DNA from: a virus
IMG/VR virus record: IMGVR_UViG_3300042862_000334
Coordinates: 1 to 61,519 of that record
DNA length: 61,519 nucleotides
Reading direction: 5' to 3' (one strand)
The position numbers and the translations under genes were made by a program. Positions within the stretch are counted from its first letter, which is position 1; each line of letters begins with the position of its first letter. The notes beneath the pieces are model-generated. The model saw nothing but the letters and a program-made list of their open reading frames with translations, was not told where the DNA came from and ran no database searches. This document shows, in pieces, positions 12,871 through 60,588 of the stretch.

Positions 12871-13272
12871 TTATAAAGTATTTAATCGTTTATTTAAAAG
12901 TTCAATTTGCCTCTTTATATCTTCTTTTTGCGCAATTCTGTCATTTTCTTGCTGTTCTAGTTGTTTTGCTATTTCTTCTTCCATCCAGTTTTCAATTTCT
13001 TTTTCGCCGAAACCTAAAACAGGAATAGGAACATAAGAAAAATCCCCTCGAGTAAAATCCTCGTAAGGAATTCCATCATCATTAAAAACTATAATACGGT
13101 CTTTTTCAACTTTGAAAGAATAGTGACTTAAAAAACTATCAAACTCCATAGTTAAATAATCCGAATTCATACCTAACAAAGATATATAACAATTTTGTTC
13201 TGAAAGTTCTGATTCTTTATCGGAAAGAATATTACACACTTCCCATAATTTTTTTAAATTAAGTATTTCCAT
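12871..13272 (-). CDS. Unrecognised 133-aa protein with C-terminal coiled coil
   Basis: C-terminal 45 residues are a Gln/Glu/Lys coiled coil (EEEIAKQLEQQENDRIAQKE). N-terminal half mixed. Overlaps the upstream gene by 14 nt. Confidence 0.7.
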   Translation of the reverse strand: MEILNLKKLWEVCNILSDKESELSEQNCYISLLGMNSDYLTMEFDSFLSHYSFKVEKDRIIVFNDDGIPYEDFTRGDFSYVPIPVLGFGEKEIENWMEEEIAKQLEQQENDRIAQKEDIKRQIELLNKRLNTL

Positions 13273-16602: not shown

Positions 16603-16752
16603 TTATTCTCTATAAATTATAAACCAATCTCTACTATTGCCTTTATCATAATGACATATCCACATTTTAGATTGTCTTATATATTCTATTTTCGGCGAAA
16701 AAAGCTTAAAAAGAAACAGAAAAATTACTGCCAAAATTAATAACTCTATCAT
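16603..16752 (-). CDS. Small 49-aa membrane-anchored protein
   Basis: ATG at 16752, TAA at 16603. MIELLILAVIFLFLFKLF is a single N-terminal membrane segment followed by a short soluble tail (WICHYDKGNSRDWFIIYRE). Its start overlaps the stop of the integrase remnant. A copy of the dispersed motif (16691-16719) is read through as FLFLFKLFSPK. Confidence 0.6.
   Translation of the reverse strand: MIELLILAVIFLFLFKLFSPKIEYIRQSKMWICHYDKGNSRDWFIIYRE
16691..16719 (+). repeat. Dispersed GC-core/A-tract motif
   Basis: TTCGGCGAAAAAAGC followed by TTAAAAAGAAACAG; one of the closest copies to consensus, inside the 49-aa ORF. Confidence 0.55.
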
Positions 16753-16916
16753 AACGGTAAATTTATTTTATGTTTTTGTATTGTTAATACTCTATAAGGG
16801 TCTTTACAACTAGTTTCTTTTAAATACTGAGATAGAGTTTGTACATAAACCTTAATTGTGTTTTGAGAGTAATTCTTATATCTCAATTTATTTTCAAAAA
16901 TTTCGAGAACTTTCAT
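16749..16916 (-). pseudogene. Internally deleted integrase remnant
   Basis: The 55-codon frame starts MKVLEIFENKLRYKNYSQNT, identical over its first 24 residues to the intact integrase at 40833-41630, continues to CKDPYRVLTIQ and ends KINLPL, matching the intact C-terminus KINLPI. About 210 codons, including all catalytic residues, are missing. It therefore cannot recombine DNA and marks a second, non-autonomous copy of the array head. Confidence 0.9.
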
Positions 16917-16975
16917 CTGCTAAGTATTGATTTTATTAGTATTTTATTATAGTTGAGTATATATAATAGTTAGCA
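16917..16975 (-). other. attI-like region of array 1
   Basis: TAAGTATTGATTTTATTAGT and GTTGAGTATATATAATAG precede the crossover G16969|TTAGCA. The same stretch, with few changes, lies between the intact integrase and array 2 (41631-41690). Confidence 0.8.
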
Positions 16976-16981
16976 CCAATA

Positions 16982-17626
16982 CTACGAAACTGCACAACCG
17001 AGAACATATTGTCCTACATTTGGGTCAACGCAATTACGAATTATTTGGTCTTTTCTGTGTTTCATTTTATATTCTCGTAAATCAAAATAACCTTTTTCAG
17101 AACTTCCTCTTTGGTTGTGAGTTAATCCGTCTTTAATTTCAGTTTGTGGTATTTCAAAGTTTGCCCAAAATAAGTGTCTACCAAGTTTTGCAGTTGGTTT
17201 TACAAATGGTTCGTAATAAGGCTTTACATTTTCAACTACAAACTTTATATCTGTGTTCTTTGTAAAGTTCTGTAAAAAGGTTATTTCAGCCCACAATCTC
17301 ATATCAGGCATTACAGCATCGTAACTTCCGCTTTTACTTGCCATCATTCTTACTTTGCTATGGCTTTGGCAAGGTGGAGAACTCCATATAAAATCAAACT
17401 CTCTCCAATTTTTAGCCAAATAATCGTGTGCATCAGTAACTATTACATTATCGTTTGGGTGTAATTGCTTGTAAACATTTGCAATTTCTTCGTTGTATTC
17501 TATTGCAGTTACTTCTACATTTTCCCAATGTTTGCGGTTTCCTCCAATTCCAGCGTATAGGTTTAAAACCCGTACTGGTGCTAACATCGGTTTGGCAAAA
17601 TTGCCGTTTTCGTTTTCTTTTGACAT
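16982..17626 (-). CDS. Cassette 1.1: DNA cytosine-5 methyltransferase, compact
   Basis: Motif I is RVLNLYAGIGGNRKHWEN (SAM site), motif IV SSPPCQSHS (catalytic PCQ), motif VI FVVENVKPYY (ENV). At 214 aa or less it is short and lacks a typical C-terminal target-recognition domain, like other compact phage C5 methyltransferases. The start is unsure: 17587 (MLAPVRVLNL) or 17626, which lies inside the attC; the ATG at 17587 overlaps the inverse core. Stop 12 nt from the crossover. Probably protects phage DNA from restriction. Confidence 0.85.
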   Translation of the reverse strand: MSKENENGNFAKPMLAPVRVLNLYAGIGGNRKHWENVEVTAIEYNEEIANVYKQLHPNDNVIVTDAHDYLAKNWREFDFIWSSPPCQSHSKVRMMASKSGSYDAVMPDMRLWAEITFLQNFTKNTDIKFVVENVKPYYEPFVKPTAKLGRHLFWANFEIPQTEIKDGLTHNQRGSSEKGYFDLREYKMKHRKDQIIRNCVDPNVGQYVLGCAVS

Positions 17627-17702
17627 TTTATCTTAATTTAAACATTTGTAATTCTAATGAAGTTTTGTGTTCGGCAACTTCGCCAAGCCGTAGGCGTTAG
17701 GC
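17572..17702. other. attC-like site 1.1
   Basis: R'' GTACTGGTGCTAAC (17572-17585), complementary to the first bases of its own cassette (TTAGCACCAATAC). Arms CGGTTTGGCAAAATTGCCG and CGGCAACTTCGCCAAGCCG. R' crossover G17696|TTAGGC. Confidence 0.85.
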
Positions 17703-17939
17703 AACATTTAAAGAAGCCCACCAAATATTAAACTTCTCCATAGCAATCTTTTCTGCATTTTTTCCACCGACACAATCTTCATAGTGATAAGGTGATTTAG
17801 TTTCTCCATCAGCGTGTCTTAATCCGCTTCTAATGCAGAAAAAACCAGCACCATCTGTAATTTCAAACCAATCTATCATTGTCATTCCAATCCCGAATTT
17901 AAATTCAGGTCGAAGTTTTAATATCTGTTTTTTAGTCAT
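17697..17939 (-). CDS. Cassette 1.2: unrecognised 80-aa protein
   Basis: Contains FGIGMTMIDWFEITDGAGFF then RSGLRHADGETKSPYHYED. Its stop codon is the complement of the TTA that forms the crossover (17697-17699), so the recombination site supplies the terminator codon. Function unknown. Confidence 0.75.
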   Translation of the reverse strand: MTKKQILKLRPEFKFGIGMTMIDWFEITDGAGFFCIRSGLRHADGETKSPYHYEDCVGGKNAEKIAMEKFNIWWASLNVA

Positions 17940-17946
17940 AATAAAC

Positions 17947-18074
17947 GTTGCCTAACAAAGTGTATAAGCAATAGCCGTTAGGCGTTTCAAACTATTGCAG
18001 TTGTTAATATTTAATTTTCTACATCTAATCAAGTTCTGTGTTCGGCTACTGCTCATACACTCGACCGTTATGTG
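17947..18074. other. attC-like site 1.2
   Basis: R'' GTTGCCTAAC matches the complement of its cassette start TTAGGCAAC. Arms GTGTATAAGCAATAGCCG and CGGCTACTGCTCATACAC. Crossover G18067|TTATGTG. Confidence 0.85.
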
Positions 18075-18080
18075 TAATTG

Positions 18081-18932
18081 CTACCATTCCGTTCCAAATA
18101 AAGATTGCGCTTGTAAATCTTTTTCTTTTCTTTTTTCTTCCAACGCTTTTTTAATTCGTTCTTCAATCAAATTACAGTATTCATTTGATATTTCACTTCC
18201 AATCCAATTACGGTTGTTTAAAATACTCATTTTTGCAACTGTTCCGCTTCCCATAAAACAATCATAAACCAAATCACCTTCATTGCTCCAACTTAAAATG
18301 TGGTCATTTGCAAGTGCTTCTGGAAATACAGCAGGGTGTTCGCCTTTTTGTGGGGCTATATACCAATAGTTGTTTCTTCTGCTAAATTCCGCACTTGGTT
18401 TTCTACTCTCTATTTTATGTTCGCCAGTTACTAATCTTCTTCCTACTCCGCTTTTATCTTTGCCAAAAGAAGCATTTGGTTTGTCATAAATTAGATTTGT
18501 AGTATTTATTTTTCCTTTTGAAAACACGAACATATACTCAAAGTTTTGTGTATAGCATTTATTACTCCCTACTGCACCTCCACCATCTTTTATCCAAATC
18601 ATTGTGTCGTGTAAGTTGAATCCAATTTCTTTGAAATATAGTGCTTGTTTAAATGATGTTCCGCTTTCGTTTCCTTGAACAGTTGCATCCGAAATAACCC
18701 AAACTAATACCCCACCATCTTTGGTAATTCTAAACAACTCCTTTGCAATATCTTCAAAAGGGAAAGAATATCCATTGTAAGTTCTTAGTCCATCATAAGG
18801 TGGGCTTGTTACCGTTAAATCCACAAAGCAATCAGGCATCTTTGCCATTGTTTCTAAATTGCTTTCATTGTAATTCTTGTTTATATCAATCATATTTTTA
18901 AATTTTTCAAATTTATTTTTGCCATCGCTCAA
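18081..18932 (-). CDS. Cassette 1.3: N6-adenine/N4-cytosine DNA methyltransferase
   Basis: Beta-class order: catalytic TVTSPPYDGLRTY near residue 40 and SAM motif YDCFMGSGTVAKMSI near residue 235. The start may be internal (MIDINKNYNESN). The last 25 residues (IKKALEEKRKEKDLQAQSLF) are nearly identical to the tail of the methyltransferase in cassette 2.1 although the bodies differ, and the 5' flanks match too, so the two cassettes share ancestry by recombination. Probable restriction evasion. Confidence 0.9.
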   Translation of the reverse strand: MSDGKNKFEKFKNMIDINKNYNESNLETMAKMPDCFVDLTVTSPPYDGLRTYNGYSFPFEDIAKELFRITKDGGVLVWVISDATVQGNESGTSFKQALYFKEIGFNLHDTMIWIKDGGGAVGSNKCYTQNFEYMFVFSKGKINTTNLIYDKPNASFGKDKSGVGRRLVTGEHKIESRKPSAEFSRRNNYWYIAPQKGEHPAVFPEALANDHILSWSNEGDLVYDCFMGSGTVAKMSILNNRNWIGSEISNEYCNLIEERIKKALEEKRKEKDLQAQSLFGTEW

Positions 18933-18988
18933 AAAAGAAAAGAAAAAGTATTCCGTTTCAAATTGAACTTTCTGCTATTAAACCGCAA

Positions 18989-19086
18989 CTACACATAACA
19001 AGGTATTTGCAAAATTGCCCACCAACATTTGTGCTTAATTTGAAGTATCTGCAAGGGCAACTTCGCAAATACCCAACCGTTATCAC
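18989..19086. other. attC-like site 1.3
   Basis: R'' CTACACATAAC, arms GGTATTTGCAAAATTGCCC and GGGCAACTTCGCAAATACC, loop with CAACATTTGTG. Crossover G19079|TTATCAC. Confidence 0.85.
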
Positions 19087-19353
19087 TCAGCTTGGCGAGT
19101 CGGTTAAAAGAGATAACATTGCATCATATCCAAAAACCTGCTTTGTTGCTTCTTTTGTATCGTTTTCATCTGATTTTAGATTTAATGAATAGGAACTTCC
19201 GTAACAGGAAACCTTTTTATTTTCAGCATCTACTATACAAAATCCCGCAGAAACAGGATTTAAGTTTCTCATACTTGAATGCTCTACGAAACAAGGAAAT
19301 ATTATAATTCCGTTGTATTCTTTAATCTTAACATATTTTTGTTCTGTATTCAT
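19087..19353 (-). CDS. Cassette 1.4: unrecognised 88-aa protein
   Basis: Start at 19353 (MNTEQKYVKIKEYNGIIIF) preferred over 19386, which lies in the attC. Beta-rich with GFCIVDAENKKVSCYGSSY. Stop 8 nt from the crossover. Confidence 0.65.
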   Translation of the reverse strand: MNTEQKYVKIKEYNGIIIFPCFVEHSSMRNLNPVSAGFCIVDAENKKVSCYGSSYSLNLKSDENDTKEATKQVFGYDAMLSLLTDSPS

Positions 19354-19376
19354 ATTTAGTGGAATAAAAAGCCGAA

Positions 19377-19517
19377 GTGATAACAAATGATATAAAAGAT
19401 TTTCGGCTTGGTTTATAAATTTAATTTTTGGGTTTGTACTTTTTAATTTTGGTCTTAAACTGAAAGGTTCGGGATTTATCCTGCCGAAAAACCTCTCATA
19501 TCATCGACCGTTATAAG
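19377..19517. other. attC-like site 1.4
   Basis: R'' GTGATAAC complementary to its cassette start TTATCAC. Arms AATGATATAAAAGATTTTCGG and CCGAAAAACC then TCATATCATCG. Crossover G19510|TTATAAG. Confidence 0.8.
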
Positions 19518-19523
19518 AAATAG

Positions 19524-19724
19524 CTACTTTACGTTTTCAATCAAATCTATTTCAACTCGATGTTTAGTATGTGAGTGATAAGAATAATTAGTCAATACTT
19601 GCGTTTCTGTTTTATAACCTAAACGGCTATCTTTTACCTTTTCAATTAATTCTTTTTCAAATTCATTTTCGGCGTGCAAAACTATCTTTGCTTTACCTTG
19701 CCATATTACTACCTCTGTTTTCAT
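19524..19724 (-). CDS. Cassette 1.5: unrecognised 66-aa protein
   Basis: Beta-rich small protein (MKTEVVIWQGKAKIVLHAEN start). Stop 13 nt from the crossover. Shares its cassette with a second tiny ORF. Confidence 0.65.
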   Translation of the reverse strand: MKTEVVIWQGKAKIVLHAENEFEKELIEKVKDSRLGYKTETQVLTNYSYHSHTKHRVEIDLIENVK

Positions 19725-19737
19725 AATTCTATTTTGT

Positions 19738-19863
19738 TTATTTAGTTACTAATGTTGTTGCAAACCACATAAAGAATAATCTTGTATAGTTCTTACCGTT
19801 TACTTTATAAGTTGGAAATTTCTTAAAGCCCATCCATTGTGTGTGAAATTCTATTTTCATCAT
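19738..19863 (-). CDS. Cassette 1.5: possible 41-aa ORF
   Basis: Tandem ATGs at 19863, stop TAA 19738. MMKIEFHTQWMGFKKFPTYK and a hydrophobic FFMWFATTLV end. It lies between the 66-aa gene and the attC; fits a two-gene cassette. Confidence 0.5.
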   Translation of the reverse strand: MMKIEFHTQWMGFKKFPTYKVNGKNYTRLFFMWFATTLVTK

Positions 19864-19881
19864 ATTTAGTTTAAATTATCC

Positions 19882-19967
19882 GCTACTTCTTATAACAGCA
19901 ACTACAACTCACCAGCCGAAACTACTCACTGCATAGGCTGGCGTGATGTAGTTGCAAAACGTTAGAG
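19882..19967. other. attC-like site 1.5
   Basis: R'' GCTACTTCTTATAAC pairs with its cassette start TTATAAGAAATAGC. Arms GCAACTACAACTCACCAGCC and GGCTGGCGTGATGTAGTTGC. Crossover G19961|TTAGAG. Shortest site (86 bp). Confidence 0.85.
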
Positions 19968-20120
19968 CCGTTTAAGGGTGTTTACATTTACCGCAAAGAA
20001 TATTGCATTTACAACGATGTTGAGTATTCCGCTTGCAATTTTACCATCTACCAAAAAGTAAACACCCATACAAAATAGGATTACCTGAACAATCATTAGT
20101 GCTATTATGAACTTTCTCAT
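19962..20120 (-). CDS. Cassette 1.6: 52-aa two-helix membrane protein
   Basis: MRKFIIALMIVQVILFCMGV and GILNIVVNAIFFAV form two membrane segments. The TAA stop is the complement of the crossover TTA at 19962-19964. No inverse core is visible beyond 20120, so the terminal attC is probably lost and the gene is stranded in the phage genome. Confidence 0.65.
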   Translation of the reverse strand: MRKFIIALMIVQVILFCMGVYFLVDGKIASGILNIVVNAIFFAVNVNTLKRL

Positions 20121-23872: not shown

Positions 23873-23883
23873 AATTTCTTCTG

Positions 23884-36307: not shown

Positions 36308-36558
36308 TATTTTAAATTTTCTATCTTTTTATAAGTTTCATCTATTAATCTCACACAATCTTCTACATCTTTTGCTTTTTCTAAGCTCTTATCTAAGAAT
36401 GCTTTTAAACATTGTTGTATTGTTGAATAATAAAAAGGTTCTTCAAAGGTGTAAGTCTCCCCTTTGCTCTTACCATCTTTTCTTGTGCGGATTTCTGAAA
36501 ACACTAAAGTTGCGCCTTCTCCACTTGTGTCGATTCTAAAATTTTCTGTTATTTTCAT
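36307..36558 (-). CDS. Unrecognised 83-aa protein
   Basis: MKITENFRIDTSGEGATLVF start, beta hairpins then helix. Part of the operon from the promoter at 36751-36781. Confidence 0.65.
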   Translation of the reverse strand: MKITENFRIDTSGEGATLVFSEIRTRKDGKSKGETYTFEEPFYYSTIQQCLKAFLDKSLEKAKDVEDCVRLIDETYKKIENLK

Positions 36559-36563
36559 AGTTT

Positions 36564-36722
36564 TTATTTTTTAAGTTTTTCTAGTTCAGCTTTATAAGCC
36601 TCTATGAGTTTACCATTCTTTATAATTGTATCAGATATTAAACTTGGATATTGACTAATTGTGCGTTTAACATCATTTTTTAAATGTTCGATTATTATAA
36701 CTATTTCCTCATGTCTTTCCAT
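36564..36722 (-). CDS. 52-aa helical protein, paralogue A
   Basis: MERHEEIVIIIEHLKNDVKR then TISQYPSLISDTIIKNGKLI. 45 of 52 residues match the ORF at 46881-47039 by my count, an unusual close duplicate pair 10 kb apart. Confidence 0.75.
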   Translation of the reverse strand: MERHEEIVIIIEHLKNDVKRTISQYPSLISDTIIKNGKLIEAYKAELEKLKK

Positions 36723-36750
36723 ATAGTATTTGTTTTAAATTTATCTTCTG

Positions 36751-40576: not shown

Positions 40577-40792
40577 TTAATATACTTTTAATTCTTCTTT
40601 ACCTGTGTTTAACCAAGCTTCTATATTATTTGTACTACGAATTGATTCATTGTTATCCATCCAATAGAATAACTGGTATCTTAAATCACTATGTGCTAAT
40701 CTTTTCTTTTCGCCGAAAAAAGATTTAAAAGAAACCTCAAATATTACAGAAGTTCCATTTTTCTCTATTAATTTTAAATTAGTAATTTTCAT
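40577..40792 (-). CDS. Unrecognised 71-aa protein
   Basis: Start at 40792 (MKITNLKLIEKNGTSVIFEV) fits the promoter at 40814-40845; the longer frame to 40816 would begin inside the -7 element. A forward copy of the dispersed motif is read through as SFKSFFGEKK. Confidence 0.65.
   Translation of the reverse strand: MKITNLKLIEKNGTSVIFEVSFKSFFGEKKRLAHSDLRYQLFYWMDNNESIRSTNNIEAWLNTGKEELKVY
40709..40736 (+). repeat. Dispersed GC-core/A-tract motif, copy inside a gene
   Basis: TTCGCCGAAAAAAGATTTAA followed by AAGAAACC; close to consensus, inside coding sequence. Confidence 0.55.
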
Positions 40793-40813: not shown

Positions 40814-40845
40814 CAAATATACGAAATTATTTTTAAATAGGCAAA
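40814..40845 (-). promoter_or_regulatory. Bacteroidota-type promoter overlapping the integrase 3' end
   Basis: TTTG (40845-40842), 20 nt, TATATTTG (40821-40814). The -33 element lies inside the last codons of the integrase gene, so the recombinase and the downstream operon are separately transcribed. Confidence 0.8.
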
Positions 40846-41630
40846 TTTATTTTACCTAAAGTTTTATTTGAAACGTGACAATAAATCTGAGTTGTTCTAA
40901 TGTTCTGATGTCCAGCTAATTGTCTTATTATTTGCAAATCTGTTCCTGATTCTAAAAGTGTTGTAAAACTACTATGACGTAGCAAGTGAAAATGATAGTC
41001 CTTACCTATATATTTTTTAACTATCTCGTTACAACTTCTGTGAGAATATTGCAGACCAAACTGCCCGTTAAACAAGAACTCTTTCGGTGTATACTCCTTA
41101 AAATATTCGCGTAAAAGATTTAAAACAACAGAAGATAAAGGTACAAACCTGTCCTTTCTTCCTTTACCGTTTTTAATTAAAATCAACATCCTTTTAGAAT
41201 CAATATCTTCTAATTTTAAATTACAAACTTCACTAACTCGCATCCCTGTAGAGAAAGCTAAAGTGATTATTGCTTTGTGCTTCAAATTCTCAATTTTTGA
41301 AATCTTATCTAACAAAAAATCTTTATCAATTACTCTTGGTAGTTTCTTTTCAGTTTTTGGTCTTTCTATTTTGTTTAGATGAACATCTTTTTTATTTAAA
41401 ATATATCGCGCAAAAAGCTTCAAACAACCAATAAACTGATTTTGTTGAGCAACAGATGAAAATTCCCTACTTTCAAGAAAACAAACAATGTCTTTAGTTG
41501 AAACTTTGTATGGGTCTTTACAATTTATTTCTTTTAGATATTGAAAAAGTACTTGTTTATAAACCTTAATTGTGTTTTGAGAATAGTTTTTATATCTCAA
41601 TTTATTTTCAAAAATTTCGAGAACTTTCAT
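40833..41630 (-). CDS. int: Tyrosine recombinase of the cassette array (short XerC/D-like)
   Basis: 265 aa from MKVLEIFENKLRYKNYSQNT; the frame continues to 41693 but the array 1 remnant starts at the same Met, and the extra codons are attI. N-terminal SAM-like DNA-binding domain, then catalytic residues: FSTGMRVSEV (Arg), KNGKGRKDRFVPL (Lys), FHLLRHSSFTTLLESG (HxxR), AGHQNIRTTQIYCHV (His, Tyr nucleophile). The roughly 20-35-residue insertion typical of IntI between the Lys and HxxR motifs is absent: only EFLFNGQFGLQYSHRSCNEI lies there. Located next to the attI-like site, so it is the probable cassette recombinase. Confidence 0.9.
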   Translation of the reverse strand: MKVLEIFENKLRYKNYSQNTIKVYKQVLFQYLKEINCKDPYKVSTKDIVCFLESREFSSVAQQNQFIGCLKLFARYILNKKDVHLNKIERPKTEKKLPRVIDKDFLLDKISKIENLKHKAIITLAFSTGMRVSEVCNLKLEDIDSKRMLILIKNGKGRKDRFVPLSSVVLNLLREYFKEYTPKEFLFNGQFGLQYSHRSCNEIVKKYIGKDYHFHLLRHSSFTTLLESGTDLQIIRQLAGHQNIRTTQIYCHVSNKTLGKINLPI

Positions 41631-41690
41631 AGTTTGAGTATTGATTTTATTGATGTTTTTTATTAGTTGAGTATATATAATAGTTATAAG
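41631..41690 (-). other. attI-like region of array 2
   Basis: GAGTATTGATTTTATTGATG then TAGTTGAGTATATATAATAG and crossover G41683|TTATAAG. Nearly identical to the region at 16917-16975; no palindromic arms on the integrase side, as expected for attI. Confidence 0.8.
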
Positions 41691-41696
41691 CAAGTG

Positions 41697-42446
41697 CTAC
41701 ATTTCGTTTTCAAATAGAGATTGTGCTTGTAAATCTTTTTCTTTTCTTTTTTCTTCCCACGCTTTTTTAATACGTTCTTCTGAAATCTTGAAATAGTTTT
41801 CATCAAGTTCAACACCAATGTATTGTCTGTTTGATAATAAACTTGCAATACAAGTCGCACCCACACCCATAAAAGGTTCAAAAACTATTTCGTTTTCTTT
41901 TGATGAATTTTCAATTAGAATTTTCATCAACTCAACAGGCTTTTCTGTGTCGTGTAAATTTTTACCATCATCGTCTTTTGTTTTTTTATTTGGTATAGAA
42001 AGTATATCAGCAGTTCCACAATTATTTATTTTTACACCTGCACCTTTTCTAAAAAATAAGATATACTCAAATTGCGACATATAGTATTGACCCATTATCT
42101 TGTTTCCTTTATCCCATATAATTGACTTTATGAAGTGAAACCCTATATCAGTCAAAACATTAAGATATTCTTGCAGGTTTTTATGATTAGTCATTATATA
42201 GCAATGACCTGTTTCTTTTAGAACTTGATATAATTTTTCTCCCCATATTTTTACGTGAGTATCATTTTTTTCAAATACTTTACCTTTTTTATTAATATCT
42301 TTTTGCAACATTCCACCGCTATTTCCAGCACAACCTCTTGCAGTTGTTGGATATGGTGGGTCTGTTACAATTAAATCAACCTTATACTCCTTAGCAATCA
42401 TTCTATCTATTATTGCTATTGCATTATCATTAAATATTTTGTTCAT
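41697..42446 (-). CDS. Cassette 2.1: N6-adenine DNA methyltransferase
   Basis: 249 aa. Catalytic LIVTDPPYPTTARG near residue 30 and SAM motif VFEPFMGVGATCIAS near residue 200, beta-class order. C-terminal tail RIKKAWEEKRKEKDLQAQSL is shared with cassette 1.3. Stop 14 nt from the crossover, 5' end next to the attC. Probable restriction evasion. Confidence 0.9.
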   Translation of the reverse strand: MNKIFNDNAIAIIDRMIAKEYKVDLIVTDPPYPTTARGCAGNSGGMLQKDINKKGKVFEKNDTHVKIWGEKLYQVLKETGHCYIMTNHKNLQEYLNVLTDIGFHFIKSIIWDKGNKIMGQYYMSQFEYILFFRKGAGVKINNCGTADILSIPNKKTKDDDGKNLHDTEKPVELMKILIENSSKENEIVFEPFMGVGATCIASLLSNRQYIGVELDENYFKISEERIKKAWEEKRKEKDLQAQSLFENEM

Positions 42447-42541
42447 TTTTCTTTATTTTTAAATTTTTATTTTCCCCGCACAAAAAAGAAAAGAAAAAGG
42501 TTTCGTCTTTCAAATCAAGTTCTGTGCTATAAAACCGCACC

Positions 42542-42677
42542 AGCTTATAACAGCGTGTATATGCAAGTGGTGGTTCTGTGGTTTATTCAACATTTGTTTT
42601 CTTATCAAACTTTCTACTGTATTGAAAGGTAAGTGCTTCTAATCACCACCTGACATATACACGCAAAACGTTATAAG
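42542..42677. other. attC-like site 2.1
   Basis: R'' AGCTTATAAC; arms GCGTGTATATGCAAGTGGTG and TCACCACCTGACATATACACGC pair; loop has TTATTCAACATTTGTT. Crossover G42670|TTATAAG. Confidence 0.85.
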
Positions 42678-42753
42678 TAACTTTAACCGAAGCTGTCCAA
42701 AAGATAATTCTGCTAAAAAGCTGTATAAATTTCTTTCTGCTTCGGAAAAGCTA

Positions 42754-42888
42754 CTATTTTTCTATAAAGTATGTATTTTTAAAAACTATATATGCTTTTC
42801 TATTCATAATAATTGTCTTTTCTCCGTACTTTTTACCCAACCATTCCACTATAAAAAATGGTAGTATTTTATAAATATTTCGTATCAT
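42754..42888 (-). CDS. Cassette 2.2: 44-aa protein
   Basis: ATG 42888, TAG 42754. MIRNIYKILPFFIVEWLGKK has a hydrophobic N-terminal segment, basic tail. Second of two tiny ORFs in this cassette. Confidence 0.5.
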   Translation of the reverse strand: MIRNIYKILPFFIVEWLGKKYGEKTIIMNRKAYIVFKNTYFIEK

Positions 42889-42890
42889 AA

Positions 42891-43019
42891 TTAAAAAGAT
42901 AAATCTTTGTTACTATTTTCTAAATCCTCTTTCAAACTTTCTAAAACTAACTCAATAATTTCAGATGGAATTTCTTCCCCATTTAAAAATTTTTCTTTAT
43001 AATCTTTTAAATATCCCAT
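42891..43019 (-). CDS. Cassette 2.2: 42-aa acidic protein
   Basis: ATG 43019, TAA 42891. MGYLKDYKEKFLNGEEIPSE then helical acidic end. The pair of an acidic and a basic/hydrophobic mini-protein could be a toxin-antitoxin-like module, but nothing is recognised. Confidence 0.5.
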   Translation of the reverse strand: MGYLKDYKEKFLNGEEIPSEIIELVLESLKEDLENSNKDLSF

Positions 43020-43027
43020 AATAAAAG

Positions 43028-43165
43028 CTACTTATAACAGTGGTTTTGCTCAATGGCTATTTCAGGCAAAATTTATACACTGTTTTGTGTTTGTAAAATT
43101 TGTTTTTAATTCAATAATTTAGGATTGCTTTTCAGCCACTAAGCAAAGCCACGAAACGTTATAAG
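43028..43165. other. attC-like site 2.2
   Basis: R'' GCTACTTATAAC; arms AGTGGTTTTGCTCAATGGCT and AGCCACTAAGCAAAGCCACG, with the TTCAATAATTTAGG loop. Crossover G43158|TTATAAG. Confidence 0.85.
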
Positions 43166-43187
43166 TAACCCTACGGGTCGCTATCGC

Positions 43188-43468
43188 TTACTTATAACAC
43201 GGGCTAAAACAAAATAAATTTGCTATCGTCCGTGCAAATATTCATCGTGGCGGTTTTCATAATCCACTTTTTTACTTTCGGTTTGTTTTGCTTCTTCAGT
43301 TTCTAATTCATAGCAGTATGAATGAAAGTTTGCGTTTCTAAATGTCATTGGAGATTCTGCATTAAAAGCAAAACCAGCATCGTAGTCGTGGATTTCTATT
43401 TTCTCTTTACAAACTTTACATTTCATAATCCGCAAATTTTACTTCGTTTAGCCCGAAACCGTTAGCGG
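43188..43468. other. attC-like site 2.3 with a gene inside its loop
   Basis: The cassette starts TTATAAGTAACC and R'' TTACTTATAAC follows after only 29 nt. Arms ACGGGCTAAAAC (from 43198) and GTTTAGCCCGAAACCG flank a 204-nt gene instead of a normal loop. Crossover G43461|TTAGCGG. Confidence 0.7.
43223..43426 (-). CDS. Cassette 2.3: small zinc-finger protein
   Basis: 67 aa from MKCKVCKEKIEIHDYDAGFA; CKVC and HSYC could bind zinc. TTG at 43435 is an alternative start. The gene sits inside the hairpin arms of the cassette's attC-like site rather than between crossover and attC. Confidence 0.65.
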   Translation of the reverse strand: MKCKVCKEKIEIHDYDAGFAFNAESPMTFRNANFHSYCYELETEEAKQTESKKVDYENRHDEYLHGR

Positions 43469-43473
43469 TAATA

Positions 43474-43710
43474 CTATGACAGTGCTTCAAATCTAATTCT
43501 GTGGTTATAAAAATCGCCATCTCCTCCAGCGTGTACAGCATATTTTTGACCATCGCCATTTTCAACTTCTGCATAAGTTCCATCTTCTAATGTAATTTGT
43601 GCTTCATCATCAAATCTTGCATAGAAATGTTTATTTTCATTTAAAAAAAATGCCATAGTATCGCTATTTGTTGGCATTGGCTCTATTGTTGAGAATCTAT
43701 AATCTTCCAT
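43474..43710 (-). CDS. Cassette 2.4: unrecognised 78-aa protein
   Basis: DTMAFFLNENKHFYARFDDE and GDGQKYAVHAGGDGDFYN. Stop 13 nt from the crossover. Beta-rich, unknown function. Confidence 0.7.
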   Translation of the reverse strand: MEDYRFSTIEPMPTNSDTMAFFLNENKHFYARFDDEAQITLEDGTYAEVENGDGQKYAVHAGGDGDFYNHRIRFEALS

Positions 43711-43738
43711 TTTGTATGTTTTAAATTATTAATAATAA

Positions 43739-43879
43739 GTACTACCGCTAACAAGGGTTTTATGAAATTGGGGCTTCGGTGCTTAATTTTGGCTTTTGGT
43801 ATTCTATTGAACTTTGGTGCTTTATTCAACATTCGGTTTTCAAAAACCCCAACTTCATAAAGCCCCGAGACGTTATAAG
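43739..43879. other. attC-like site 2.4
   Basis: R'' GTACTACCGCTAAC complements the cassette start TTAGCGGTAATAC over 13 positions with one mismatch. Arms TTTATGAAATTGGGGC and CCCCAACTTCATAAAGCCCC. Crossover G43872|TTATAAG. Confidence 0.88.
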
Positions 43880-43884
43880 CCATT

Positions 43885-44256
43885 TTAGGACGACACACCG
43901 TTAATAGAAAGTAAATTTTCCCAACCACAAGAAACATCATAACCTAAATCATCGGCTTGGTTTACAGTCAATGCTTTTAATTCAATTGTTTCAGTTGGTT
44001 CTTTTGGCATTTCTTTATAATCCCACCATTCCGAACCATCATACTCGCCTCTTTCAAGCCACCAATTTTCGCCAACCACTAATAAATCTTGTGCAACTTT
44101 AGATGAACCAAATCCACTTTCATAATCAACATCAGCAGTTTTTTTGAAATCTTCCCAAGTTGTTTTATGAGTTGAAGTTCCTACCCATTTTACATCAGTT
44201 TCTTTTTTGTTATTACTCTCTAATAATTCAAGAGTTTCTTTTAATAAATTGCTCAT
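43885..44256 (-). CDS. Cassette 2.5: unrecognised 123-aa protein
   Basis: Contains VKWVGTSTHKTTWEDFKKTA, LLVVGENWWLERGEYDGSEW and WWDYKEMPKEP. Trp-rich. Stop 12 nt from the crossover. No function known to me. Confidence 0.75.
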   Translation of the reverse strand: MSNLLKETLELLESNNKKETDVKWVGTSTHKTTWEDFKKTADVDYESGFGSSKVAQDLLVVGENWWLERGEYDGSEWWDYKEMPKEPTETIELKALTVNQADDLGYDVSCGWENLLSINGVSS

Positions 44257-44297
44257 TGTTTTTTAATTATATTGTTACGCCAAACACGAATAAAAAC

Positions 44298-44398
44298 GGC
44301 TTATAACAGTGGTTTGGCAAAATACCGCCACAAGCCTTTGTACTATAATTCAACATTTGTGCAAGGCGGTACTTCGCCAAGCCACCAAACGTTACAGG
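44298..44398. other. attC-like site 2.5
   Basis: R'' GGCTTATAAC; arms AGTGGTTTGGCAAAATACCG and CGGTACTTCGCCAAGCCACC; loop TAATTCAACATTTGTGC. Crossover G44391|TTACAGG. One of the clearest sites. Confidence 0.9.
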
Positions 44399-45051
44399 CA
44401 AGTGTTAGCACCCTGCACATCAACGACAGACTGCGGGATATTACGTTCCTGTTTACGTTCTTTCATTTGCCAATCGTAATCCAATAAATAGTTATGGCTG
44501 TTACCAATCAAATCATATTTGTCTTTACTAATTGACACTTTTAAAAAGGCTCTCATTCCACCTTTGGTAATTGGTGCAACTTTATGAATGTTAAATTGAT
44601 TAAGTCTTATAAGTTGATTTTCTTTGTAAGCAACATCATTAAATGGCATCGCTTGTTTTTCCATTTCTTCCATTGAAAGCAAATCGTCTAATGGCAAATC
44701 AAAATCTGTTTTATTAAAAATGGTTGGGTATTTGTCGCACCACACATAGTTAATATCATTAGTCAAAAAACCATCGCTATGCCATCCTGTTCTATTAAAA
44801 GAACAATTAGGCATTTGATAAAGAAATTTTGCAGTCAAATACACGTATGAATTTACATAATTATCCAAGCCAAATTCGCCAATAAAATCACAACATATTG
44901 CACCAATCAATTTATCAAAGCATTTTAATCGTGGCTCATAAATCGGTTGTGTTTCATTTGGCATTTTAATAGGTAAATATTGGTAGAACATCATTTCTTT
45001 ACATTCTACTTCAAATATTCCTAATTCCGTTGGTAGTTCACCGTATTTCAT
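44392..45051 (-). CDS. Cassette 2.6: 2OG-Fe(II) oxygenase-like protein
   Basis: 219 aa. RTGWHSDGFLTND supplies HxD, and FNIHKVAPITKGGMRAFLKV supplies the distal His and Arg, the metal/2-oxoglutarate ligands of the double-stranded beta-helix dioxygenases. The substrate is unknown. Its TAA stop is the complement of the crossover TTA (44392-44394). It overlaps the second gene of this cassette by 4 nt. Confidence 0.75.
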   Translation of the reverse strand: MKYGELPTELGIFEVECKEMMFYQYLPIKMPNETQPIYEPRLKCFDKLIGAICCDFIGEFGLDNYVNSYVYLTAKFLYQMPNCSFNRTGWHSDGFLTNDINYVWCDKYPTIFNKTDFDLPLDDLLSMEEMEKQAMPFNDVAYKENQLIRLNQFNIHKVAPITKGGMRAFLKVSISKDKYDLIGNSHNYLLDYDWQMKERKQERNIPQSVVDVQGANTCL

Positions 45052-45353
45052 ATTGCATTGATTTTAACAGTTTCAAAAGTGTTTTCAAAAACGTAAAGGC
45101 ACAATTCCTGCATTATAAATAGTTTGCAAGTTCCCATATAATTAAGCCTTTCAAGTGGCGTTTTTATTGGTTGCCCTGTTTTATAAAATTCTAAACACCT
45201 TTTTTCTTTTGGGTGTTCTTCATCTGTTTCAACTATTGCCCACAGAAAAAACAATCCATCTACATCTTCAATGCGGATTATTTGAGCATCTTTTGGAAGT
45301 TCTATTGTGTACTTCTCTTTTGTTGGTATTGAGTATTTATATATTGCTTTCAT
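45048..45353 (-). CDS. Cassette 2.6: unrecognised 101-aa partner protein
   Basis: Beta-rich (MKAIYKYSIPTKEKYTIELP, LFFLWAIVETDEEHPKEKRC). Translated ahead of the oxygenase-like gene with an ATGA overlap, so the pair travels as one cassette. A similar small beta protein family accompanies phage genes, function unknown. Confidence 0.7.
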   Translation of the reverse strand: MKAIYKYSIPTKEKYTIELPKDAQIIRIEDVDGLFFLWAIVETDEEHPKEKRCLEFYKTGQPIKTPLERLNYMGTCKLFIMQELCLYVFENTFETVKINAI

Positions 45354-45383
45354 TACGAAAAATTTTAAAGATTAACCCACACC

Positions 45384-45518
45384 TGCCTGTAACATCGGTT
45401 TGCCAAAAGCTGGGCAGACGTAGTAAATTCAGCTTTTGTTCCTTTAATCGGCTTTAGTGCAAGGGGTGATCAGTTGTGCTTCTAATCCCAGCCTTCGGCA
45501 AGCCGTAGCCGTTAGCAT
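45384..45518. other. attC-like site 2.6
   Basis: R'' GCCTGTAAC complements TTACAGGC at its cassette start. Arms CGGTTTGCCAAAAGCTGGG and CCCAGCCTTCGGCAAGCCG. Crossover G45511|TTAGCAT. Confidence 0.88.
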
Positions 45519-45523
45519 CAATG

Positions 45524-45739
45524 CTACAATTTGTTTTCAAAAGATATTTTAGGCTCTTTTGGAATTGGAATTTTCATAACGTGGGTTGGCACTTTTCTGC
45601 CACAAAAACCGTAATTAAAAGAAAAAGTATTTTTTAAAAACTTTGCTTTTTTAACTTTGTTGTCCATAAAAATATAACAATCAAAATCAGTTTCTTTTTC
45701 AAAATCGAATTTATCTATTTCAATCCATCTGCAATTCAT
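45524..45739 (-). CDS. Cassette 2.7: unrecognised 71-aa protein
   Basis: MNCRWIEIDKFDFEKETDFD start, basic middle (KVKKAKFLKN). Stop 13 nt from the crossover. Confidence 0.65.
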   Translation of the reverse strand: MNCRWIEIDKFDFEKETDFDCYIFMDNKVKKAKFLKNTFSFNYGFCGRKVPTHVMKIPIPKEPKISFENKL

Positions 45740-45765
45740 AGTATTTCAGTTTTAAGAACCGCACT

Positions 45766-45903
45766 AATGCTAACACATGTTTGTGTCAATAGCTACGGCA
45801 GTTATTAATTTAATGTTTTGCGTTTTCTTTTATGTTCAGTCTTAAACCGAAACGATAGTGTGTGTCAGAACGCTACTGAACACAAGCACTCGGAAGTTAT
45901 GTG
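45766..45903. other. attC-like site 2.7
   Basis: R'' AATGCTAAC complements TTAGCAT. Arms TGTTTGTGTCAATAGCT and GCTACTGAACACAAGCA. Crossover G45896|TTATGTG. Divergent loop. Confidence 0.8.
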
Positions 45904-45907
45904 AGAT

Positions 45908-46081
45908 TTACTCGTCAGAAGTATCAAAATTAAAATCATCTTCTTCTTCTACTATAACTTCTCCTTTATATGAAAAAGAAACAGAAGGAGAACCACAACA
46001 ACCACAACCACCTACTGACATTTGTATATCATTAGCCTTTAAAATTTCTTTTACTTTTTTAATTCTTTCTTCTATTCCCAT
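45908..46081 (-). CDS. Cassette 2.8: 57-aa protein with CGCC motif
   Basis: ATG 46081, TAA 45908. Basic helix at the N-terminus, then MSVGGCGCCGSPSVSFSYKG and a strongly acidic tail (VIVEEEDDFNFDTSDE). Metal binding through the Cys cluster is possible. Stop 12 nt from the crossover. Confidence 0.6.
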   Translation of the reverse strand: MGIEERIKKVKEILKANDIQMSVGGCGCCGSPSVSFSYKGEVIVEEEDDFNFDTSDE

Positions 46082-46100
46082 TTTGTTTTAATTTAAAAAC

Positions 46101-46236
46101 CTCACATAACAGCATATTACCGCTATGGCTTGGCTTTGGTTAATCCGAAATGTGTCGGCTCACTTTTTGTTTGTTGTTTATTTGTTGTCGTTTGTGTTCA
46201 AATACGCCACATAGTTAATATGCATAACGTTATAAG
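46101..46236. other. attC-like site 2.8
   Basis: R'' CTCACATAAC complements TTATGTGAG exactly. Arms GCATATTAccgctatgg and CATAGTTAATATGC. Crossover G46229|TTATAAG. Confidence 0.82.
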
Positions 46237-46835: not shown

Positions 46836-46880
46836 TGGGTTAATTGTTTAATTTAAAGTCTGTTTTGTTTCATATCTTAT

Positions 46881-47039
46881 TTATTTTTTAAGTTTTTCTA
46901 ATTCAGCTTTATAAGCTTCGATAAGCTTGCCATTTTTTATAATTATATCAGATGCTAAACTTGGATATTGACTAATTGTACGTTTAACGTCATTTTTTAA
47001 ATACTCAATTAATATAACTATTTCTTCACATCTTTCCAT
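46881..47039 (-). CDS. 52-aa helical protein, paralogue B
   Basis: MERCEEIVILIEYLKNDVKR then TISQYPSLASDIIIKNGKLI; close copy of the gene at 36564-36722. Directly follows the right end of array 2. Confidence 0.75.
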   Translation of the reverse strand: MERCEEIVILIEYLKNDVKRTISQYPSLASDIIIKNGKLIEAYKAELEKLKK

Positions 47040-47102
47040 ATCTTATTTATTTTTCTTTTATCCAATTATAGCATCACTTCCTAATAGTAGTCTTTTCATA
47101 TC

Positions 47103-55494: not shown

Positions 55495-55498
55495 AGTT

Positions 55499-55575
55499 TT
55501 AAAGTGTTATTTTTATCAAAGGTATATATCAATACCAAAATTATATTAAAGTGTCTTACAATCGTTTTAAATAGT
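55499..55575. repeat. 77-bp perfect direct repeat, copy A
   Basis: Starts TTAAAGTGTTATTTTTATCA and ends TCGTTTTAAATAGT; identical by eye to 58364-58440. Between two genes; contains minus-strand TACCTTTG (a possible -7) and the last three codons of the gene at 55567. Confidence 0.85.
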
Positions 55576-55773
55576 GTCTGTTAAGTAAGCATCTGTTTTA
55601 CAATGCGGACAAGCCCAAAAACTATTTTCATAATCGTTTATGTACTCCATTGAATAAACTTTTATACCTTTAATATCGTACTTCTTTGCGTTTATTTGTG
55701 GGTTTTCGTCTATTAACAACCTTTCACAATTATTGCATTTACAAAGTTCTGTTCCGTTTTCTTTTAGTTTCAT
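55567..55773 (-). CDS. Zinc-ribbon-like 68-aa protein
   Basis: CKCNNCERLLIDENPQINAK and FWACPHCKTDAYLTD give two CxxC pairs. Its stop codon is inside the 77-bp repeat. Confidence 0.7.
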   Translation of the reverse strand: MKLKENGTELCKCNNCERLLIDENPQINAKKYDIKGIKVYSMEYINDYENSFWACPHCKTDAYLTDTI

Positions 55774-57177: not shown

Positions 57178-57208
57178 AATATTAAATTTTTAAATTGTTG
57201 TTTTAAAT

Positions 57209-57238
57209 TTCGCGCGAAAAAAGATTAAAAAGAAACTG
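57209..57238 (+). repeat. Dispersed GC-core/A-tract motif, intergenic
   Basis: TTCGCGCGAAAAAAGATTAA followed by AAAGAAACTG, with a palindromic TTTCGCGCGAAA core. Upstream of the 120-aa gene. Confidence 0.6.
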
Positions 57239-57811: not shown

Positions 57812-57835
57812 TTTGTTATTATTTTATGTTTAAAT

Positions 57836-57862
57836 TTCGCGCGAAAAAAGATTAAAAAGAAG
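57836..57862 (+). repeat. Dispersed GC-core/A-tract motif, intergenic
   Basis: TTCGCGCGAAAAAAGATTAA followed by AAAGAAG; nearly identical to the copy at 57209. Confidence 0.6.
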
Positions 57863-58271: not shown

Positions 58272-58363
58272 AATTGTTTATTTATTTTTTTACCATACTA
58301 TAATATACTTGTTTTTAATAGATTAAAGATGGCAAAAATTTAGTGGTTTTGGGGGTTTTGGTG

Positions 58364-58440
58364 TTAAAGTGTTATTTTTATCAAAGGTATATATCAATAC
58401 CAAAATTATATTAAAGTGTCTTACAATCGTTTTAAATAGT
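58364..58440. repeat. 77-bp perfect direct repeat, copy B
   Basis: Identical by eye to 55499-55575. Lies in the 174-nt gap between the genes starting at 58271 and ending at 58446, and may bring a promoter. Confidence 0.85.
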
Positions 58441-58445
58441 ACCTA

Positions 58446-58700
58446 TCAATTTAAAGATAAGTTAATTCTTTTATACTTTCCACCATTATTTATATCGTGG
58501 ACAATAGAAATTAAATCATTGTATAAATTATCTCTTATTGGTAAATCTTCATAATACATTAATAACCATTCAATAATACTTTCAGAAACATATTTACAAG
58601 TATATTTATTACCATAATTCCAATTCTCGCAATTTTTTATAAGTCTTTTTACGCGAGTAACACTTATTGGATAAAACCCACTTTTAATTTTTGTTTTCAT
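58446..58700 (-). CDS. Unrecognised 84-aa basic protein
   Basis: GFYPISVTRVKRLIKNCENW, basic, helical. Unknown. Confidence 0.6.
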   Translation of the reverse strand: MKTKIKSGFYPISVTRVKRLIKNCENWNYGNKYTCKYVSESIIEWLLMYYEDLPIRDNLYNDLISIVHDINNGGKYKRINLSLN

Positions 58701-60539: not shown

Positions 60540-60560
60540 TTTGTTATTGTTTTTAAATTT

Positions 60561-60588
60561 TTGCCCGAAAAAAGATTAAAAAGAACTG
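60561..60588 (+). repeat. Dispersed GC-core/A-tract motif, intergenic
   Basis: TTGCCCGAAAAAAGATTAAA followed by AAGAACTG. Confidence 0.55.

Follow-up and report, generated by a model that had tools for sequence, protein, structure and literature searches.

A second cassette array with its own attI site in a probable phage-borne integron

An integron-like system with two arrays of gene cassettes is described here in a 61.5-kb IMG/VR virus record (IMGVR_UViG_3300042862_000334; the whole stretch of 61,519 nucleotides is called the window below), which is a virus of marine-type bacteria. One array (array 2) adjoins an intact gene for a tyrosine recombinase, and the other (array 1, 16749-19964) consists of an integrase remnant and an attachment site, attI, followed by five cassettes that each end in an attC site. 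Array 1 is probably a further cassette array of an integron carried by the phage, with its own attI, on which the resident recombinase acts in trans. Somewhat less firmly, it is proposed that such elements are a class of integron specific to phages. Its recombinase, which is minimal, XerA-like and devoid of the IntI domain, would recombine folded attC sites, serve several dispersed attI sites of one virus genome in trans, and move inverted cassettes that are adapted to phage transcription.

Organization of the two array heads

The heads of array 1 (16783-16979) and array 2 (41497-41693), when aligned, form a 197-bp direct repeat with 83% identity. In array 2, this head includes the start of the recombinase gene (40833-41630, minus strand; 265 amino acids, PF00589) and an attI (41631-41686, plus strand) with the crossover G at 41683. 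The start of this gene is placed here at the ATG at 41630 and not at a TTG (41693), a small correction to the initial annotation, which was made from the DNA letters without database searches. In array 1, an open reading frame (ORF) of 55 codons (16749-16916, minus strand, starting at the ATG at 16916) carries the N-terminal 45 residues of the integrase joined to its last codons, with the catalytic core absent, as had been proposed. Residues 1-24 of the remnant are identical to those of the integrase (MKVLEIFENKLRYKNYSQNTIKVY), and the amino acid identity is 84% over 45 residues (query residues 2-46). At the C-terminus, KINLPL and a stop codon in the remnant correspond to KINLPI and a stop codon in the integrase, with 12 identical nucleotides (TAAAATAAATTT) in the same frame, a tail match equalled by 3 of 2000 shuffled tails. 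The likeness continues for about 55 bp beside the remnant, including TAGTTGAGTATATATAATAG^TTA, where the initial annotation had noted a match of 55-60 bp to the attI region of array 2. The attI of array 1 (16917-16972, plus strand; crossover G at 16969, G^TTA) has a profile score of 30.6, the same as that of the attI at the intact integrase.

The divergence between the two copies is uneven. Identity is 69/72 nucleotides in the first 24 codons, where codons 1-13 show no nucleotide change, versus 45/63 in the next 21 codons. Synonymous divergence (dS) is about 0.75, the ratio of nonsynonymous to synonymous divergence (dN/dS) is 0.12, and the reading frame of the remnant is intact, from which it follows that either the two copies were both intact during most of the divergence or the stub is under constraint; the identity of the first 13 codons could be due to gene conversion or to constraint at the DNA level. 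The initial annotation had proposed that the array head was duplicated or split and that one copy lost its core. Of this, the core-deleted integrase with its own attI is supported, and a simple duplication of the resident head is not supported as stated: a recent duplicate that subsequently decayed is not supported, being at odds with a dS of this size. Because of this dS, and because one remnant in another phage record (G022; see below) is nearer to a different integrase lineage, such heads may be either importable or old.

A recombinase clade without the IntI-specific domain

Recombinases of this clade are about 266 amino acids long and lack the IntI-specific domain. In the window integrase, all catalytic residues are conserved, and the distance from the GKG motif to HxLRH is 60 residues versus 107 in IntI. 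The enzyme matches the integron integrase model TIGR02249 in two stretches with 140 bits, below the cut-off of 265, and resembles XerA/XerC models more than IntI. Its best PDB matches are archaeal Xer enzymes (4a8e by sequence, 5hxy by fold); an AlphaFold2 model (mean predicted local distance difference test, pLDDT, of 86) likewise gave archaeal XerA as the best structural match and then IntI4, with template-modelling (TM) scores near 0.55, which reflect how the domains are placed and should not be given much weight. In a phylogenetic tree, the enzymes from 51 viral sequences and three contigs of metagenome-assembled genomes (MAGs) group in a single phage clade with support 100/99, separate from both IntI and the outgroup of Xer-type enzymes. 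The three bacterial-MAG contigs (L083, L084 and L085), one of which comes from a Bacilli MAG and encodes an integrase 69% identical to that of the window, are probably misbinned phage contigs. The IntI-specific domain has been described as necessary for integron recombination (PMC9668308, citing Messier and Roy, 2001). The phage clade, which lacks it, nevertheless looks as if it works in an integron-like manner, to judge from the arrays described below.

attC sites, matched cassette ends and exchange of cassettes

attC sites were sought with a rule derived from the window and then used on other loci, namely TAACA-stem-loop-stem-(C/A)GTTA with short spacers and GTTA required; looser rules gave counts barely above those of shuffled sequences and were dropped for this one, which beat them. 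In the window, 11 sites were found, all on the plus strand and all within the arrays (five in array 1, six in array 2), versus 0.3 sites per sequence after shuffling; the minus strand had none. Related integrases (46-70% identity) were found in 80 viral loci, collected by similarity to the window integrase from IMG/VR contigs, which are fragments, some of the very long ones perhaps being non-viral. Arrays of attC sites occur in 70 of these loci and comprise 378 sites, compared to 3 after shuffling. The strand of the sites relative to the integrase is the same throughout, and the sites adjoining the integrase are on its 5' side; three loci (L010, L021 and L058) have second arrays on the opposite side.

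The arms of these sites are asymmetric, with 1-2 nucleotides beside TAAC and usually 5 beside GTTA. In the cassette circle, the attC has an outer stem of about 15 bp. Position 11 is an A in all 203 cassettes compared; this A is hardly ever paired on the top strand, where it usually faces a C, so that a G.T pair is usually formed on the bottom strand. Predicted folding makes the bottom strand more stable in 199/203 sites (mean -24.5 versus -20.1 kcal/mol for the top strand), which agrees with the known preference of integron attC sites for this strand (PMC9892861). GTTA itself is set by the scan, and the fifth base of the R' box is a T in 135 of the 203 cassettes, so that the R' box is mostly GTTA(T/G) and the bacterial GTTRRRY is not followed. 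The opposite attC orientation, which would give the cassette genes their normal sense, was considered and rejected, as the stop codon of the first gene abuts attI with no hairpin between. The orientation is fixed by the matching of cassette ends and by the bottom-strand folding.

If cassettes move in circular form, each cassette should have two ends that match one another and not those of its neighbours. Such a match of at least 5 nucleotides beyond GTTA was found in 69% of 262 distinct cassettes, versus 1.7% when ends of different cassettes were paired and 2% when the two sides of one attC, as it stands in the array, were compared. Furthermore, four groups of contigs (L004/L005, L013/L014, L022/L023/L025 and L030/L032) share 99.7-100% identity over 600 bp leading up to attI on the side of the integrase and carry different first cassettes, and in all four the identity stops at or just after GTTA. 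Identical or near-identical cassettes were also found in different phages and at different positions. As read from these contigs, past recombination of cassettes at attI in related phages is seen directly, and we infer that the resident integrase is the enzyme behind it.

Orphan attI sites in other phages

The attI upstream of the integrase is conserved in about 60 loci as TATATATAATAG^TTA, and a 28-bp attI profile finds one site per integrase in most loci, its other matches being almost only orphan sites, that is, sites that have no intact integrase beside them. Profile and pattern searches were made in 46 further records beyond the window, and their counts are lower bounds. Orphan attI sites heading attC arrays occur in at least 7 of 47 phage records with a related integrase, window included: two sites were found in each of G002 and G022, three in G044 (one without attC), and others in G007, G038 and G051, with a weaker case in G020. 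Integrase N-terminal stubs are retained at several of them (21 and about 74 amino acids in G022, 35 in G044, 17 in G051 and 45 in the window, with a weak stub of 32 in G038), while no recognizable integrase sequence was found at the orphan sites of G002, G007 or position 13210 of G044. The 74-residue stub of G022 resembles another lineage, with 58% identity to the integrase of G038, above that to the integrase of its own genome. Matched own ends are found in 29 of 39 orphan-array cassettes and in all five cassettes of array 1. In G044, a 230-nucleotide cassette that stands first after the attI of a second integrase (L068) recurs inside an orphan array with 99.1% identity, so that one cassette is shared between two arrays of the same genome.

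The first orphan cassette of G002 (L250, 4070-4222; also in L251 and L252) consists of about 25 nucleotides plus attC, and its loop contains T-arm-like letters (GGGAGTCGAACCC, GGAATCGAACCTCC); a tRNA was suspected here, and ARAGORN found none.

Probable action in trans and alternative explanations

Because orphan arrays recur in at least six other records and G044 has a cassette common to two arrays, the best reading is that one enzyme serves several attI sites in trans, as the initial annotation had suggested for the intact enzyme and the two attI sites of the window; taken with the recurrent stubs, action in trans at orphan attI sites is likely. Several observations weigh against this reading of array 1. 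The recombining homologue of array 1 that the initial annotation had looked to was not found: an exact IMG/VR search with the array 1 attI stretch returned no other contig, and no near-identical phage whose array 1 differs was found by such searches. For the gene flanking array 1, the nearest relative (L215, 89% protein identity) lacks both attI and attC, which proves little as it is only loosely syntenic. When four orphan attI sites were searched exactly in IMG/VR, that of the window had no match, two returned only their source contig, and that of G002 was found in three contigs, all with the same first cassette; cassette turnover at orphan attI was thus not caught directly in these searches. 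The shared cassette of G044 adjoins the second of two integrases in that genome, and the integrase of the window is without the domain held necessary for IntI activity in the work cited above.

It is possible, though doubtful, that the remnant was kept because attI, or a DNA-binding site beside it, reaches 40-60 bp into the integrase gene, or because the peptide encoded by the stub is functional, either of which would be compatible with action of the resident enzyme in trans. The near-complete identity of the first 24 codons, the intact frame with its low dN/dS, and the 17, 21 and 35 integrase residues retained at orphan attI sites of other phages are consistent with this idea, whereas no integrase residues are recognizable at the orphan sites of G002, G007 or G044:13210, and gene conversion, or divergence with both copies intact, explains the pattern equally well. 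It is rather unlikely that array 1 is a fossil, that is, a former integron head that lost its integrase and whose cassettes are fixed, as in many bacterial clusters of attC sites lacking integrases (CALINs). With five attC sites and an integrase remnant only, array 1 is indeed a CALIN by definition (at least two attC without a nearby integrase), and the deleted core, the smaller number of cassettes than in array 2 and the lack of any array 1 variant would fit a fossil. This is countered by the matched ends of all five cassettes, by an attI as well conserved as that at the intact integrase, by the recurrence of orphan arrays in unrelated phages, and by the cassette common to two arrays in G044.

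That the cassettes are moved by a host enzyme or by one from a co-infecting phage, in place of the resident integrase, is improbable. The class 1 integrase IntI1 uses some phage attC sites in assays (PMC9892861), and canonical IntI occurs in 84 of the 296 genomes that were sampled from the phylum to which one Bacteroidota genome (G013) belongs; against this, in 70 of 80 loci the attI and attC arrays accompany a single integrase clade, the resident integrase has attI directly upstream, and its catalytic residues are conserved. That there is no integron at all, the hairpins being terminators or other repeats and the recombinase an ordinary phage integrase, is hardly credible even for an enzyme nearer to XerA/XerC than to IntI, given the orientation bias, the spacing rule, the exchange breakpoints at GTTA and the matched cassette ends, which terminators do not explain.

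Cassettes of the window, gene orientation and cargo

Array 1 has five attC-ended cassettes and one ORF without attC, as first described; all cassettes are given here in plus-strand orientation, and the genes and ORFs given with coordinates lie on the minus strand. Cassette 1 (16970-17699; attC 17582-17699; own ends matching 6/6) carries a C5 cytosine methylase-like gene (16982-17626, or from an ATG at 17587; PF00145), and the alternative ATG overlaps the R'' box of its own attC (17582-17587). The other four, supported by the attC scan and matched ends, are cassette 2 (17697-18070; ORF 17697-17939; attC 17953-18070), cassette 3 (18068-19082; attC 18996-19082, also supported by hairpin folding), which carries an N6/N4 DNA methylase gene (18081-18932; PF01555), cassette 4 (19080-19513; ORF 19087-19386; attC 19381-19513) and cassette 5 (19511-19964; one or more short ORFs; attC 19893-19964). 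The small ORF after the last R' box (19965-20120), read from the sequence, is flank or a truncated cassette, and the hairpin scan found no attC there.

In array 2, cassette 1 (41684-42673; attC 42548-42673) carries another N6/N4 DNA methylase gene (41697-42446; PF01555). It is followed by cassette 2 (42671-43161; attC 43035-43161; own ends matching), cassette 3 (43159-43875; attC 43749-43875; own ends mismatched), cassette 4 (43873-44394; ORF 43885-44256; attC 44304-44394) and cassette 5 (44392-45514; ORFs 44392-45051 and 45048-45353, the latter DUF7352; attC 45390-45514). The distal part (45512-46232) holds a probable attC at about 45765-45898, recognized by eye and ending in AGTTA, and a weaker one at 46107-46232 (score 9.2).

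Among cassette ORFs of at least 75 amino acids in the phage loci, 244 of 247 point towards the integrase, which is the reverse of bacterial integrons, where cassette genes classically read away from it from a promoter, Pc. In the window, all cassette genes lie within one long leftward gene block, so that read-through from phage promoters is a likely source of expression, and transcription by the leftward operon of the phage is probable because the genes are inverted relative to attC. Most of the 100 longest cassette proteins have no Pfam match; among those that do, DNA methylases lead (N6/N4 six, C5 three, D12 two), followed by GNAT acetyltransferases. This suggests that the methylases serve evasion of host restriction, a role proposed earlier for phage integron cassettes (Qi et al., 2023, PMC9892861).

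Relatives of the window and other repeats

The helicase of the window (about 51% identity) and a large structural protein (24-30%) are closest to those of the Cellulophaga phages phi4:1 and phi17:2. Of these, phi4:1 is a 145.9-kb phage of the genus Lightbulbvirus, and a scan of its first 50 kb found no attC or attI of the window type. Two direct repeats of the window lie outside both array heads (36528-36745 and 46845-47062, 218 nucleotides, 81%; 55496-55584 and 58361-58449, 89 nucleotides, 94%). An intergenic motif, (G/A)CAAATATAC, recurs at 23873, 36740, 38173, 40791 and 57573, with one copy just left of the integrase, and reads on the minus strand as GTATATTTG, resembling the Bacteroidota -7 promoter element. 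A GCGAAAAAAGATTAAAAAGAAA-like intergenic element is found at 16683-16715, 40701-40733, 57202-57234, 57829-57861 and 60553-60585, and these include copies left of both array heads.

Comparison with known systems

The phage loci resemble bacterial IntI integrons (class 1 and the Vibrio superintegron type) in having a conserved attI beside the integrase, with different first cassettes after identical attI sites, arrays of single-gene cassettes with matched ends, a foldable attC whose bottom strand is predicted to be the stabler one, and a probable crossover at a GTT core. They differ in that the recombinase lacks the IntI-specific domain and falls outside the IntI clade, and in that cassettes are inverted, several attI sites can occur per genome and the R' box is mostly GTTA(T/G) instead of GTTRRRY. 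Xer recombinases (archaeal XerA, bacterial XerC/XerD), which resolve chromosome dimers at dif, share the size, fold and catalytic residues of the window enzyme, while the latter adjoins attI/attC arrays and belongs to another clade. Treponema-type integrons (PMC3607928) also have integrase and cassette genes read in one direction; in that system the integrase reads toward an attI at its 3' side, whereas here attI is at the 5' side and the genes are turned inside the cassettes.

Another comparison is offered by Bacteroidota XerA-like recombinases of about 380 amino acids (L088, L105, L107, L120 and others), which have about 40-43% identity to the window enzyme, no IntI insert and, in some cases (L088, L107 and L120), attC sites nearby, as opposed to which they carry an N-terminal extension of about 110 amino acids, have attC at the integrase 3' side and keep genes mostly in the usual sense (6/7 main cassette ORFs). 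Such integrases with attC on the 3' side are found on Bacteroidota chromosomes (L088, L107, L110, L120 and L145) and possibly represent a further unrecorded type of bacterial integron. Canonical integron integrases scoring over the cut-off in 84/296 sampled genomes of the G013 phylum are far more than the single complete integron reported for Bacteroidetes proper (PMC9024848).

Phage integrons and CALINs have been described (Qi et al., 2023, PMC9892861), with phage-borne attC arrays that include DNA methylases and one inactive prophage with two attI-headed arrays. Those systems have bacterial IntI in temperate phages or no integrase, as opposed to the phage-specific clade and recurrent orphan attI sites seen here. 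A literature search that covered neither preprints nor most subscription journals found no description of this integrase clade, of cassettes inverted throughout, or of recurrent orphan attI sites per genome, and these features thus appear to be new, while phage integrons as such are not.

Proposed mechanism and significance

In the proposed mechanism, the single intact recombinase (40833-41630) would insert, excise and shuffle cassettes at both attI sites, acting on array 1 in trans. On a cassette circle, the attC would fold from single-stranded DNA into a hairpin, more stably from the bottom strand, and the recombinase would join this attC to attI at G^TTA. The cassette genes would be transcribed towards the integrase by the leftward operon of the phage and not by a promoter in attI, and swapped DNA methylase genes may help the phage to evade host restriction.

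A phage clade without the IntI domain that lies beside clearly recombining attC arrays makes the requirement for this domain directly testable, and software that demands the domain would be expected to call such loci integrase-less attC clusters only. If the system works as proposed, phages would own dedicated machinery to exchange accessory genes, DNA methylase genes among them, with several loading sites per genome.

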